A DNA stretch of 64,000 bases, from assembly GCF_010093595.1 (NCBI RefSeq), contig NW_022985463.1:67323-131322 (forward strand), written 5' to 3'. The stretch comes from Mytilinidion resinicola. Lineage: Eukaryota > Ascomycota > Dothideomycetes > Mytilinidiales > Mytilinidiaceae. The notes beneath the pieces are model-generated. The model was not told where the DNA came from, did no database searches, and saw nothing but the letters and a program-made list of their open reading frames with translations. This document shows, piece by piece, positions 18,310-56,538 of this stretch (within the stretch, counting starts at the first letter, position 1; every line of letters starts with the position of its first letter). The position numbers were made by a program, and so were the translations under genes.

Positions 18310-19375
18310 TCAAGTCAATGACCAAGTGAATCCGGCCTCAGAATCGGCCTCTTCCCAATATTCTCGCCATTCGGGCCTTTGATGTTTAATCCGTCCTGAG
18401 GTTTTGCGTGTTTGCCGCAAAACTTCTTGATTTTCCTTAAACGAGTCAATTATAAATCCTGTGAGGGGGAGAGATATAACAACGCACTCTTCGAACTTTT
18501 CTGCGCCCACTTCACTCAGGTTGCAGCACTACAACCTAGGATCAACAACTCATATGCCAGAAAGCTACTCTCCGAACATCAGCTGTAGAGAACCCAGCTG
18601 AAATCTCAGCTGTAGAGAACTGAGCTGAAGCCTCAGCTGTGCAGGGCTCATCTGAACTTACTAGCGCGCCACCCTGGGGGTGGCCCCCTTCCTTCCCCTA
18701 GTATATATACAACTAGCTAGACGTCTATAGAAATCAGAGTTCACATCAATTTAACCTGAGTACTTCAGCTTCCTGCAGCGCGCCATTGCACTTGGGCTCG
18801 AATGGTAGCATGTCAGCGAGTTTGATGAGCTGCTCTAACCACTCATATTGCGCGTCCATGTAGTCGGGTTTGACTAGAGTGATATGAGGATAGTTGATAT
18901 TCCGGCAATGGCACCCCTCATGTTTTGTCTGTATTCTAGTGTCAGCAATTCGTTCTCCTTCCATGCATACTCGCCGACTCACCACTTTACAAAACGCATT
19001 TCTCTCAAGGATCTCCTTATCCTCTTCTTGCGCCTTGCAATCGTCCGCGATACAAAGTATGTCTTGTGGACAATATAAGTCTTCCGGCTTCAGATTCTCT
19101 GTGAGCGCCGTCTTCGATATCCATATATTTAGCAATTGGCTCCCAACCATACCCAACAAGAGTGTGACCGCTAGTTGGAGTTCCACCAACGTCGGGATAT
19201 TAAGAACTTCTGCTTGAGCCAGCAGCACGGGCACCCCTTCCCCACGGACCATGCGAACTCGGACGTCATGGTACACGACGACGACCATATTCATGTTATC
19301 CAACACCAGGTTCTGGATCGGAAACCCGATTTGCCCAACGGGCCCCTGCTGTGCCGGCATGTTCTGAGGCGCCAT
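18310..19375 (-). CDS. Unknown protein, coding frame interrupted by an intron-like element
   Basis: I do not recognise this protein. The minus frame 19375-18746 is continued in a second frame, 18510-18310. The two come into register if the 248-bp element at 18514-18761 is spliced or removed. A second, ordinary intron is likely at about 18984-18931 (GTGAGT donor, GCTGAC branch, ACAG acceptor, 54 bp, in frame if retained). The predicted product is about 255 residues: a hydrophobic segment near residue 75 (LQLAVTLLLGMVGSQLL), a short Cys/His patch (KHEGCHCRNINYPH) and a charged C-terminal part rich in Glu and Lys that ends TWSLT. If the element is not spliced the protein ends early at 18746. Expression is not shown. 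Confidence 0.5.
18509..18766 (-). mobile_element. Intron-like TIR element, copy 1 (248 bp plus 5-bp TSD)
   Basis: The element body is 18514-18761. Its ends are ACTCAGGTTG and, at the right, TAACCTGAGT, inverted to each other with one mismatch. Direct ACTTC copies flank it at 18509-18513 and 18762-18766 (GAAGT on the coding strand). On the minus strand the left inverted repeat supplies CAG|GT and the right one CTGAG|T, so a 241-bp GT-AG intron could be removed, leaving the host frame intact with four added codons. The branch-point position reads GTTGATC, degraded from the GCTGAC of copy 2. The outer ~45 bp and ~95 bp match copy 2 at 55065-55337; the core consists of its own repeats of CAGCTGTAGAGAAC-type words. 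No coding capacity. Confidence 0.7.
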
Positions 19376-49954: not shown

Positions 49955-50779
49955 NNNNNNNNNNNNNNNNNNNNNNNNNNNNNNNNNNNNNNNNNNNNNN
50001 NNNNNNNNNNNNNNNNNNNNNNNNNNNNNNNNNNNNNNNNNNNNNNNNNNNNNNNNNNNNNNNNNNNNNNNNNNNNNNNNNNNNNNNNNNNNNNNNNNNN
50101 NNNNNNNNNNNNNNNNNNNNNNNNNNNNNNNNNNNNNNNNNNNNNNNNNNNNNNNNNNNNNNNNNNNNNNNNNNNNNNNNNNNNNNNNNNNNNNNNNNNN
50201 NNNNNNNNNNNNNNNNNNNNNNNNNNNNNNNNNNNNNNNNNNNNNNNNNNNNNNNNNNNNNNNNNNNNNNNNNNNNNNNNNNNNNNNNNNNNNNNNNNNN
50301 NNNNNNNNNNNNNNNNNNNNNNNNNNNNNNNNNNNNNNNNNNNNNNNNNNNNNNNNNNNNNNNNNNNNNNNNNNNNNNNNNNNNNNNNNNNNNNNNNNNN
50401 NNNNNNNNNNNNNNNNNNNNNNNNNNNNNNNNNNNNNNNNNNNNNNNNNNNNNNNNNNNNNNNNNNNNNNNNNNNNNNNNNNNNNNNNNNNNNNNNNNNN
50501 NNNNNNNNNNNNNNNNNNNNNNNNNNNNNNNNNNNNNNNNNNNNNNNNNNNNNNNNNNNNNNNNNNNNNNNNNNNNNNNNNNNNNNNNNNNNNNNNNNNN
50601 NNNNNNNNNNNNNNNNNNNNNNNNNNNNNNNNNNNNNNNNNNNNNNNNNNNNNNNNNNNNNNNNNNNNNNNNNNNNNNNNNNNNNNNNNNNNNNNNNNNN
50701 NNNNNNNNNNNNNNNNNNNNNNNNNNNNNNNNNNNNNNNNNNNNNNNNNNNNNNNNNNNNNNNNNNNNNNNNNNNNNNN
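49955..50779. other. Assembly gap (825 N)
   Basis: All bases are N. Its true length and content are unknown; it lies within the LINE 3' region. Confidence 0.99.
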
Positions 50780-53636
50780 CTTCCTATATTGCTCCTTATT
50801 TTAAGAGCTTATATAAGTTGTCTAACTGCCCTTTATACCTCGGGGCTAGTGCTATAGCCTTAACCGCGAGCCTCTTTAGTATATTATGCCGGCTTAGCTT
50901 ATATTTAAGCGTTTTCCTAGGCTTATAGTATCTCCTAATAGTATTTCTAATAGTGCGGTATATAGTCTTAATATGCTTTCTAGCCTAGCCCGCGCGCGTG
51001 CAGTCCGTGTACGCTACCGCGAGTTCCTCTAGCTTAAGCCTTAGGGGGGGGCAAGAGGTCTTATATTTAAGTATTTTAATATCTATTATTTTATACGCCC
51101 CTGTAATAGTATAGAGGAAGTAGTTCTAGGCTATTTTAAGTTATTTAATCTTTGCTTTGCTAATTTATTCCTTTATACCTGGCGTTAAAAACTAGGTAGT
51201 ATACCTATATATAAGAACCGGCCTAATAACTACTAAGTATATATACTATGCTTTTTAGAAGCTTACGCCCTATATTAATACTATTAGCTATATAAGGGCT
51301 CCTATTTATACTATAGCCTTTTCCTTTATAATATATATATACGGGCCCTATTTAAGTTTAGAGTCTACCTAAACTTTAAGTATATAGAGCTCTATAATTA
51401 GGCCCTTTATAAAGCCCTAGATATTTACTATAGCCTTTATATTTACCATATTTAAACAGCGCCTTATAAAGTATATAAGGTAATACTTATCCGGGGTAAA
51501 TACTATACTATACTTTTTTGCCTACTCTATATACTATATATACGCACTTTTAATTACCCTATAGTTTTCTTTTATACTTCTACTAAATATAAAGATATTA
51601 GTATTATTTATAAACCTATAGGCTATTATATTGCCTTTTTATAGTACTGGTAGAAGCGTGCTTATAAAAAATAAAAAGAAGATTAGTAAAAGTAAAAATT
51701 CTTATAGTATACCTATATTAACCGGAATAGTTTTAGTAATATATTTTCTAATAAAAAGTTTTATAGTTTAGTTCTATAGAAATAATTCTATAAATTAGAC
51801 TATCTATTTTAGTATATATTAGACCTATAGGTTATATATTATTTTTTTATAAAATACTCTATTAAAGGCCCCTAAAATATCTAGGCTAAAAAGAAAGGTA
51901 ATAAAGTAAAAGTTGCCCTTCTATATAGTTTATATTTGTTCCGTAAAAAGTTTTAGTACTATCTGCGTAGATTATTTAGGCCTTGCACCTATTTAGCTTA
52001 GTAGAAGTATACCTTTCTCCTCTGCTATTTTAGATAGTTTTCGTGCTATAATATATTTAAGCAGCTTACCTACTATTTCTAGCAGCGTAATTAGCCTATA
52101 TAACTTTGCTATATTATAGAACGCTTTTTAAGGCTTATATAGTACTATAGTAATTAATTCTTTATATAGCTATAGGTAGTGCCCTATATACACGCACCTA
52201 GTAAAAAACCTAGCTAATATTAGTACTAGCTGCGTTTTATATTTCTTAAAAATCCTATTAGTTATTTTTATAATACCCGGGGCCTTATCCGGGGCTATTT
52301 CTATTAGCGCGGAGAGAATATTTTTTACTATAATATTTTATAAGGACTTATATAGCTCTAGGTATTAGTATTTTTTAATATTAGAAAGGTCTACCTCTAT
52401 AAAAAGTAGGAAGAACTATTCTATAAATATTTAGGCCTTAGTCTTATTATCTATATAGAGTATTACGTTATTAGGCTATAAAAAAAGGGGGAATTAAGGC
52501 GGTGGCTATAGTTCCTTTCTAATAGTTCTGCCCTATTTAGCTAGCTTTTATACTTTTATACTTTTTTTGCGTATAGCCCTTTTTTTTCTATTATACTATA
52601 CTTTATATAAAATCTAGTCCTCTACTATTCTTAATAAGCGCCAGGTTTTATAGGCCCGCCTTATCTTCTATATTTCCTTAGTATACTCTATTAACTATAT
52701 AGGTAATACTTATTTTAATAGCTTTATAAGTAGTATAGTTTTATCTATTATAGCTTATATATACTTATATAGGCGGTGTGCAAATATATTAAAATCTTCC
52801 TCTATCTCCTGCAGGTTATTCCGAGTTTCTAGCTTATCTAGCTATATTACTAGGTTCTTTTATACTTTTTTCTATACTATATCCTTCTATAGCCTACGCT
52901 GCAGGGGTTTAGCTGCCTTTAGTAGTAAGATATTAAACTCCGTGTATATAGGCCGGTAATTAGAGTTGCAGTTCTATTCCTTTTATACTGTAAAGGAAAT
53001 TGTTTATTCTATTAGCCACCCTATTATAAATATAAGGTTAATTATAGACTATAATATTTCTTTTGCCTATATTTCTAGCCCTTCCTCCGTAGCTAGGTCT
53101 ATGCCTGCTTTGCGCGTAATACGGAGGAGCTCCTCTACTTGCTCCTTAATTTGCATAACTTAAACTCCTCTCTATAGCGGATAGTGTAGGTTTATATCTC
53201 CGATAAGAATATATTCCGCTTTAGTATTGTTTAGCAGTAGGGGTAGTTCCTGTATAATACTGTTAGGGTTCGGGTTATAGATATTATAAATATAGATCCT
53301 TTTTCCCCCTACGCAAAGGGAGAGGGTGTTAAGATCTAGTAAGTGGTGCACAACTAACTACTCGTTAATATCTAGTTGTTTATTAACGTATATGCAGGCT
53401 CTTATGTGTTCCTCTCCTGCGTGCAGTAGATGGTATAACTTTGTTATATGCGTTATATGCACTGTGTGCCCCTGCCCCTGCCCCTGCCCGCGTGGGTTCC
53501 TCCACGGTTCTTGTATGGCTAGTACCATAGGTTGCGGGCTGGCGTTCTCCGCCTTTTTAAGGAACTCCTTCTAAGTTGTTAAGTTCTTATGGACGTTATA
53601 CTGTATAATAGTGAGGTTGTTCGGTCGTTCTAACAT
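50780..53636 (-). pseudogene. LINE ORF2 (endonuclease-reverse transcriptase), degraded
   Basis: At the 5' end the minus frame from 53636 reads 'LTIIQYNVHKNLTT', a TAG, then 'AENASPQPMVLAIQEPWRNP', the start of an exonuclease-endonuclease-phosphatase domain, and further on 'YILIGDINLHYPL'. From about 53200 the frame fills with stops and the bases are almost only A/T with TA steps, so the RT domain cannot be read as protein. Strong C-to-T change on both strands, as by RIP, explains this. The product cannot be functional. Confidence 0.65.
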
Positions 53637-53746: not shown

Positions 53747-55603
53747 TTAAACCTCTCTGCTTAATATTAGCCAATCGCCTCCGCCGTACGTGGTTTGTGT
53801 AGCTAGCTGTAATAATGCTTCCGGCAGCGTAGCTAATCGGTTGGGTCGCGTAAACTGGGCGGGCTGCGTTCTACTTCCGATTCCAAATGCCTCGTTGATG
53901 GCGGGCTGGTCCTTGTCCGCTGTGAGCACCTTCTTCGGCCGCCCAGGTCCGGGTCTCTTCGAGGGTGCAGGTACAGTGGAAGCCGTGGATGCCATAGAGT
54001 CCATAGAGGAGGGCTCCTCTGCTTGTGTCTCGAACTCCCCTGTATGTCGCACCCTCTTCTTTAGAGCTATCTTCCTTGCGTGCTGTTGTTTGTCGTGTGA
54101 CTGCGCTTGGAACATATATGGTTCGTTGCGCTCTGCGGCGTATTAGCGTGGTGTTGTCCATTTCTTGTTAAAGGCCCTTTGCTAGGCCCCCTTTCGAACA
54201 GTGCATTCGGCACTGTATAACGGGTGGTTTCTGTTGCAGTTTGCGCATTTCTTGATGGTCTTGTCTGGGCACACTCTCGTGTCGTGCTCGCCTGCGCACA
54301 CTGCGCATTTAACGTTCTTTTTGCAGTACCTCGCAACGTGCCCGTAGCCCTGGCAGTTGAAGCACTGCGTGGCTGCAAATCCTGCCTCGTACCTTAAGGC
54401 GTCGAGTACATAGCCTCCCCAAGCGATGCTGTTGTTGATGGCGTTGTTCGCCATTGCTTCTGTTCGTACGCCTACGATGGCCGAGCTTGCACGCCGTGCT
54501 GGGTTTGCCCGCGCCGCGGCAATAGCTGCCTTGTTCTTCCATGTGATCTTGTCGATTGTGAGTCCTGGGTTATGGGTTGCGTTGTTTTCCATTACATCCT
54601 TCCGTAGGCTCGGGTTGTCGAGGTCCATCTCCTTAGGCACGCCGTGTACTTCGATGAGCACCGTAGGCGTGCGTATAGTGGCGGAGGAGCCTAGGACAAG
54701 AACCCAATCCTTCTTCTTTAGGAGGGCGTCTTTCGATAGCTTATCCGCGACAATTGCCTTGATATCACCACTTTGTAGCTTCCTGATGCCACTAATCTTT
54801 GTGGTTTCCGGCTCTCCCGCCGCTTGTAGCTTTTTTGTGATATGGTCGTTCGTGTGTGTCGCGTTAGCCGCTCGCTGGGCGTCGTTTTCGATGTGGATGT
54901 TGATTTCGTGGAGGTTGTTTGTTGCATCCTGTCCGATTCTCGCGTCCTGTCCAATTCGTATAGCTTGCCCGATTTGCATTGCCATCGGGGCCTTCGCTGC
55001 TGCAGCTGCGTATGTCTTGTTTCCTTGAGCTTTCAGCTCGCTAATGCTCTTCCTTGTGTCCTTCACTCGGGTTGCAGCACTACAACCTAGGGTCAGCAAC
55101 TCATATGCAGTAACGTATCAGGATAGCATGCTGATACAGGAGGAAGTAACAGGTAGTGCAACAGCAGTGCTGCAGCACGGTATCAGTACTGTATCAGGAA
55201 ACAGGATGAATCAAGTAACGCGTCAGGAAGAGATACCACGTTATGCCCCCGGGGCTGGCCCCCCTCCTTCCCCTAGTATATAAACAACGAGCTAGACACC
55301 CATAGAAATCAGAGTTCACATCAATTTCAACCTGAGTCCTTCATCTCCTTCATCAGTTCCTCCCATGGCGCGTCCTTCCGTTCGTCCATGGTTCTTTGTA
55401 TACGGTGGAGTCCTTCCTTGGCATCCGTGAGTCCAAAGAACGCGTTGTTGATGCACGCGACTATGGCCTGGAGGAAATCCATGCTAATGGCATTAAGGGG
55501 CTGACTCCGTAGGGCGCTTTGTATTTGTTGTACTTCGTTGAGTGCGCTTACGACGCTTCCGTACGTGTCGAGGAGGGGCTTTTGGTTGTATTGTTGTTGT
55601 GGG

Positions 55604-55640
<37 letters not shown>

Positions 55641-55809
55641 GCGAGTGCAATCTAAGGTTAGGGGTCGCGGGAAAGATTTGACCTACTGCAACACCACCAC
55701 CACTGCCCGGAGGGCTTTGTGATTGCGTACGATTGCTCTGAGTGCTTTGAGGAGCCCATTGGGACTCCCTTTGGCTTCGATTTCCAACGGCTTGTTGGGA
55801 CGACTGCAT
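53747..55809 (-). pseudogene. LINE ORF1 (Gag-like, CCHC zinc knuckles), interrupted
   Basis: The frame starts 'MQSSQQAVGNRSQRESQW', has a poly-Gln run from GTT/TTG repeats at 55594-55644, and 'LQAIVACINNAFFGLTDAKE'. After the nested element it resumes 'VKDTRKSISELKAQGNKTYA' and reaches zinc knuckles 'CFNCQGYGHVARYC', 'CAVCAGEHDTRVC' and 'CANCNRNHPLYSAEC'. Two in-frame stops (54182-54184 and about 54148) separate this from 'MFQAQSHDKQQHARKIAL' in the same frame down to 53747, which contains 'RPGPGRPKK'. The base composition is ordinary, unlike ORF2. Gag-like ORF1 proteins bind the element's RNA. This copy is dead because of the stops, whatever happens at the insertion. Confidence 0.65.
55060..55342 (-). 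mobile_element. Intron-like TIR element, copy 2 (273 bp plus 5-bp TSD)
   Basis: The body is 55065-55337, ends ACTCGGGTTG and CAACCTGAGT. CCTTC flanks it on both sides (55060-55064, 55338-55342; GAAGG on the coding strand). On the coding strand a 266-bp GT-AG interval (GTTGAA donor, CCGAG end) could be spliced, with GCTGAC 26 nt before the AG as a good fungal branch point. Splicing adds four codons and restores ORF1; exact excision of body plus one TSD also restores it. A small hairpin (AGGTTGtagtgctgCAACCC) sits at the 3' end. The core (repeats of GTATCAGGA-like words) has no similarity to that of copy 1. Confidence 0.72.
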
Positions 55810-56538
55810 CGTTTTTGCTTTTCTTTATCTCTATAGGTATGATAATAGTAAACCTTTAGTAATAATACGTTATGATAATGCTGCAAGCAGGGGTTCAAGG
55901 GCTCAAGGAGGAGCGTTGATTGTATTCTAGGTATAGTATCAGGTGGAGAATCAAGACGTTGGGTAAAGAATAGGAATTCGGGGCAGCTCGTGAAGGTATA
56001 TAAGGGTGGCCAAGCGCGCGGCGCAGGCTATCCAGAATTAGAAGATAGAAAAGGGGCGCGTTTATCCCTGGATCTGTGATACTTTAGAGGAAAGCGGCGG
56101 TAGTATTTAAAAGACATTGGCTTGTTCTCTAAGATCCGAATAGGAAATAAGATTCTCTCTGCCGCATTAGAAGTTATGTATGTTTCCCTAGATAGGCGGT
56201 GGGGAAGGATCGGTATATTGTTAAAGGTGATTACCGTGACAGTTTAAAACCATCAATCCGACACTAGGAAAAGCCTACAGCAGCTACGGCATCAAGTCTA
56301 CACCTCACTCAAATCTTCAATATCTTAGGCATTAAGTCCCGCTCCTGTCACCTCTATCCTGGACCCTCTCTGAAACTCGAAGGAACACCCTAGCAGCGCT
56401 CACTTACACCATCAGAGACCTTTTCTGACACGCTGACGTGCAATCTCGCAAAAGACATTTTTATAAAAGCTTTCCTATAGTCAATCAAACCGAAGATCAA
56501 CCAAGACGGGGACCGATTTTGGGGGTTCCAGCTCCCAT
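55810..56538. other. LINE 5' flank and gene spacer
   Basis: The first part may be LINE 5' leader, but I could not fix its end or a target-site duplication. The rest is the 3' flank of the HET gene. No gene is visible. Confidence 0.45.

Follow-up and report, generated by a model that had tools for sequence, protein, structure and literature searches.

The window analysed here, a 64,000-nt stretch of the Mytilinidion resinicola genome (contig NW_022985463.1, positions 67,323 to 131,322), holds a minus-strand gene that is interrupted by a short insertion. This insertion, copy 1, is a 248-bp element of the A type (18514-18761, plus strand) with 9-bp inverted ends, ACTCAGGTTG and TAACCTGAGT, which match each other in inverted orientation at 9 of 10 positions. 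It is flanked by a 5-bp target-site duplication, ACTTC (GAAGT on the minus strand), at 18509-18513 and 18762-18766. The host frame upstream of the element (18767-19375, minus strand) is deposited as BDZ99DRAFT_576169; 185 of 203 aligned positions of this model match the window frame, and the other 18 form a single gap corresponding to a canonical 54-nt intron, GTGAGT...ACAG, at 18929-18982. The model reads into copy 1 and ends there with the residues EVLRLN, as does the window frame, in which the stop codon lies within the element at 18746-18748 (minus strand). At the empty site, the downstream part of the host frame (18313-18513, minus strand) continues the upstream part without a change of register. 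The search for a second genomic place of this gene, which could have served as an in-genome empty site, returned its own position as the only match.

The initial annotation had noticed a 241-nt interval on the minus strand of copy 1 (18755-18515), running from GTTAAA to CCTGAG, and had taken the element for one that splices itself out of RNA. Re-reading of the coordinates bore out the structural part of this description: the 248-bp length, the inverted ends, the GAAGT duplication and the GT-AG interval are all as claimed, and removal of the interval joins the flanking frames in register with a gain of four codons, the modelled residue being VLSE. As an intron the interval is unsupported, and the deposited model makes no use of it.

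The second element of the window, copy 2 (55065-55337, plus strand), behaves alike, as had been stated: it is 273 bp long, has the duplication CCTTC at 55060-55064 and 55338-55342 and contains a GT-AG interval of 266 nt. It is of the G type and belongs to a different subfamily, with its 5′-terminal ~45 bp and 3′-terminal ~90 bp in common with copy 1. Used as queries against the window, the family sequences found copies 1 and 2 only, and Rfam at gathering scores gave 0 matches over the whole window. The frame that copy 2 interrupts (54185-55824, minus strand, in two pieces, 55345-55824 and 54185-55063) is gag-like, has a weak zinc-knuckle match (PF00098, E 0.0043, 17.5 bits versus a cut-off of 20.8) and a glutamine-rich stretch, and is probably part of a retroelement, which we take to be LINE-like. 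Being probably a retroelement, this host does not count as an independent cellular gene. Elsewhere in the window, the low GC value at 50001-52000 is due in part to a run of N at ~49955-50780.

Both copies belong to a large family. In the genome as searched (47.1 Mb, 44 contigs), the 23-base 5′ end with at most 2 mismatches gave 206 matches (104 forward, 102 reverse), 63 of them of the ACTCG subtype, while the reversed control gave 0; the 3′ end gave 229. An exact two-ended pattern found 155 copies of ~246-276 bp, and its control 0. We read 82 distinct copies, which were drawn from the best BLAST matches and from the first contigs among the matches listed and are thus a selected rather than a random sample; five end matches that lacked a readable 3′ end were left out. 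Three length classes, 273 bp (35 copies), 249 bp (24) and 248 bp (15), together account for 74 of the 82. The commonest sequence is repeated without change in 18 of the 35 273-bp copies and 18 of the 24 249-bp copies, and this identity of so many copies points to recent spread. The commonest sequences have stops in all frames and are therefore non-coding.

Throughout the family the ends take the form ACTCRGGTTG...CAACCTGAGT, and inverted ends of 9-10 bp are present in the 82 copies read as well as in diverged subfamilies. Several subfamilies have these ends in common and differ in the middle. At L029:2048-2361, L053:2913-3145, L064:2503-2786 and L089:1029-1225 (copies are named here by locus), subfamilies that have diverged keep both these ends and the 5-bp duplications. 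In the L064 subfamily, 37 of the 40 copies scored, out of 313 candidates, are 100% identical. The lack of a 3′ end in L089 and L090 is uninformative, as both continue into N.

Exact 5-bp duplications flank 70 of the 82 distinct copies, and their sequence varies. Two of the 12 copies without matching duplications are the inverted pair L042/L043, and the other ten are unexplained. The members of this pair (G000:C6:649754-651315) are of identical type and their duplications (CCAAG/AATGC) are swapped, the arrangement that recombination between the copies would produce by inverting the intervening 1-kb segment. The target preference is weakly palindromic, with S at position -2 in 50 of 69 duplications, W at the centre in 49 and S at +2 in 55; such a preference is typical of transposases and integrases. 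GAAGN had been put forward as the target on the strength of the two window copies, but GAAG or CTTC occurs in only 2 of the 69 duplications, and the agreement of both window copies is a coincidence.

These features point to a young MITE-like family of ordinary kind that is probably new: the elements are short, non-coding, high in copy number and homogeneous in length, with terminal inverted repeats and a duplication of fixed length. The search on transposable elements in Mytilinidion resinicola found nothing, and that on 5-bp target-site duplications in MITEs of fungi returned a plant study only. With fungal MITEs the family shares its near-identical copies, its inverted ends and its common ends around differing middles; it differs in combining a 5-bp duplication with ACTCRGG ends, to which no superfamily was assigned, and no transposase was read in it. 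LTR elements, too, typically make 5-bp duplications, which counts against a MITE-like assignment. We nevertheless consider it highly probable that copy 1 is a member of such a short, non-coding, high-copy MITE-like family of M. resinicola, which interrupts genes and is not spliced out. In the mechanism that we propose, a transposase made elsewhere would bind the shared ends, and the element would move by cut and paste, entering a staggered 5-bp cut whose position is only weakly biased to palindromic sites; filling of the gaps would yield the 5-bp duplication. An element placed in a coding frame would bring stop codons with it and interrupt the gene, presumably with loss of its function.

The initial annotation had further described the two window insertions as in-frame and sense-oriented. 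We examined 69 copies with a matching duplication and at least 200 bases of flank, measuring for each the longest frame free of stops that spans the empty site; the test compares sites within one neighbourhood and not gene density genome-wide. The median spanning frame was 390 nt at insertion sites versus 405 nt when sites were picked at random from the flanks of these copies, frames of at least 600 nt spanned 21 of the 69 insertion sites (30%) versus 28% of random sites, and 26 of the 69 lay outside any stop-free frame of 300 nt. The orientation of the element to the spanning frame was even: 15 of 31 copies lay in one orientation when frames of 140 aa or more were counted, 11 of 21 from 200 aa and 4 of 11 from 300 aa. 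The sampled copies thus show neither a frame preference nor an orientation bias, which is the pattern that the initial annotation had named in advance as speaking against its own reading.

Of the 31 hosts whose frames reach 140 aa, pieces of 22 were scanned against Pfam at a threshold of E 0.001. Five cellular hosts received support: L055 (NACHT, with ankyrin below the cut-off), L035 (HET), L006 (TPR and kinase), L021 (FAD_binding_3) and L078 (ankyrin). Four further hosts are transposase genes, L016 and L019 (MULE), L005 (DDE_1) and L024 (hAT); the remaining scanned hosts had no match at E 0.001. That insertions occur in transposase frames as well as in cellular genes supports the MITE-like reading, and this young high-copy family is seen in HET, NACHT and enzyme genes.

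The in-register joining of the frames around copy 1 had been offered as evidence of splicing. It is, however, built into the ends: seven end bases plus the 5-bp duplication make 12, so removal in frame is automatic. After the proposed splicing any host would retain the duplication, ACTCAG (or ACTCGG), a T and the second duplication, and would so be 12 nt longer; since the symmetry of the ends gives both of them NNNNNN|GT and AG|T, a copy seems open to in-frame splicing whatever frame it sits in. With ends of CAG|GT and GAG|T and a 5-bp duplication, the family mimics an in-frame intron at every insertion. Introner searches are liable to be misled by such mimicry, and so perhaps are gene predictors, a copy being bridged in one of the deposited models.

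The reading of the initial annotation is that of an introner, a TIR transposon bringing its own splice sites, whose genic insertions become introns and add four codons. In all 36 modelled host frames both ends carry GT and AG at constant positions, and 31 of the 36 residues are open. With random duplications and frames, though, only 7.8% of residues contain a stop, so that ~92% would be open by chance alone. The five residues with a stop are those of L055, L021, L006, L074 and L062; in the last two the stop comes before the junction and results from the script's choice of frame. Three of the five Pfam-supported cellular hosts (L055, L021 and L006) would thus keep an in-frame stop, and the residue is open in the other two, L035 and L078. 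For L021, the predicted product of splicing at the ends runs GVTQ and terminates; in L006 only 24 codons lie upstream of the element, which makes the start uncertain. The terminal donors are GTTGCA, GTTGAA or GTTAAA and the acceptors CTGAG or CCGAG, unlike the GTGAGT...ACAG of the one host intron compared, that of the copy 1 host. The donors lack the ascomycete donor consensus, and the boundaries, while they have GT and AG, carry motifs too poor for competent splice sites. The minus strand of the A type does contain an internal GTAAGT, as well as branch-like GCTGAT/GCTGAC and a TAG near its 3′ end, which would favour an introner; in copy 1 the stop met by unspliced RNA precedes the GTAAGT, 13 nt into the element. 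Both deposited host models that we saw, BDZ99DRAFT_576169 and BDZ99DRAFT_575297, avoid the end sites. From these sequence features, splicing at the element ends appears unlikely.

An introner of this build has a precedent. As described in PMC9860276, the DNA-transposon introners of Aureococcus have TIRs, target-site duplications and both candidate splice sites inside the element, and they likewise leave 12 nt, or four codons, of which 4 bp come from the introner and 8 from the duplication. The M. resinicola family differs from them in its poor site motifs, its even orientation (11 of 21) and lack of frame preference, and in the stops left in three of five supported hosts. PMC9860276 also reports ascomycete introner families as gene-biased and without TIRs or TSDs, and the main text of PMC4457414 nowhere yielded the terms 'inverted repeat' or 'target site'. 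Like the ascomycete introner-like elements of these sources (PMC4457414; PMC9860276), our family consists of multicopy insertions in a dothideomycete; it differs in having TIRs and TSDs and in showing no frame bias in the sample. Given ascomycete introners so described, a spliced TIR/TSD element here would be a surprise, and the evidence points the other way. We regard an introner as very improbable. What stands of the original idea is the mobile element, high in copy number and young, with inverted ends and 5-bp duplications; its splicing is unsupported.

One result does favour removal from mRNA, by host sites and not by the element ends. The HET host L035 matches the deposited model BDZ99DRAFT_575297 at 451 of 451 positions, and the model maps to L035:129-1481 and 1784-2167, dropping 1482-1783. 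The dropped 302 nt (GTTCCG...CCGCAG) comprise the element and 29 flanking bases, both sites are host DNA, and the remaining parts are joined in frame. The predicted intron also removes flanking host codons and is possibly a prediction artefact. Removal of a number of genic copies from mRNA through splice sites in the adjoining host sequence would be compatible with any transposon class, but a gene predictor would choose just such a pair of sites to get past a stop, and the model of the copy 1 host is unbridged; we judge this unlikely. The FAD host L021 likewise offers no bridged counterpart, since no model of its own of 220-700 aa was present among the best 120 of 2,610 matches, the top identity being 88%. 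The broader notion, that some genic copies leave the mRNA through the end-borne GT and AG where the context allows, or else through neighbouring host sites, seems to us very unlikely. If it were true, the family would be the first TIR/TSD element caught as an incipient introner in an ascomycete.

The L021 host is also informative about the insertion itself. The FAD-dependent monooxygenase gene at L021:868-2360 is interrupted by a copy, and its orthologue in Lophium mytilinum, P0122, is continuous across the site, with residues 1-211 matching at 88% and 211-421 at 87%. This fits the interruption of genes expected of a MITE-like element.

The 5-bp duplications, the similar length and a TATATA motif ~70 bp from the 3′ end, together with conservation of the last 30 bp in all 8 aligned family sequences, could also suit solo LTRs of a short-LTR retrotransposon ~5.3 kb long, and four same-strand end pairs lie at about this spacing: 5,178 (C8), 5,329 (C7), 5,387 (C9) and 5,446 bp (C6) apart. 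Against such an origin, the ends read ACTC...GAGT rather than TG...CA and form inverted repeats of 9-10 bp, long for solo LTRs. Among the matches listed, the two main subtypes have no direct pair closer than 8.5 kb (C14), followed by 10.5 kb (C16) and 10.8 kb (C5), and both copies on C14 (L020 and L027) carry their own duplications. In two older subfamilies, a tandem on C16 with a spacing of 14 bp is the only direct pair at close range among the matches listed. The 12 copies that lack matching duplications have no adjoining sequence in common, and no full-length copy with direct terminal repeats was recognised among the matches listed. The solo LTR reading is therefore disfavoured, and we hold it to be improbable.

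For a MITE-like family, the end pairs 5.2-5.4 kb apart suggest instead a full-length element lost in assembly gaps; in the C9 pair, the 1,401 bases probed inside are all N. One more lead to an autonomous partner comes from C4:204333-207369, where two inverted 3′-type ends enclose a stretch that contains stops and is similar to the beginning of the MULE gene of L019. A link between this stretch and the partner of the family is possible, as a lead only. Four pieces of it had no match to Pfam up to E 1, and the MULE domain listing had no entry at either the C4 stretch or a related repeat at C1:395701-396044. A 3′-type end lies ~1.4 kb beyond the C1 repeat. Within the C4 stretch, L093 (G000:C4:205500-205960) resembles a decayed MULE-like transposase N-terminus.
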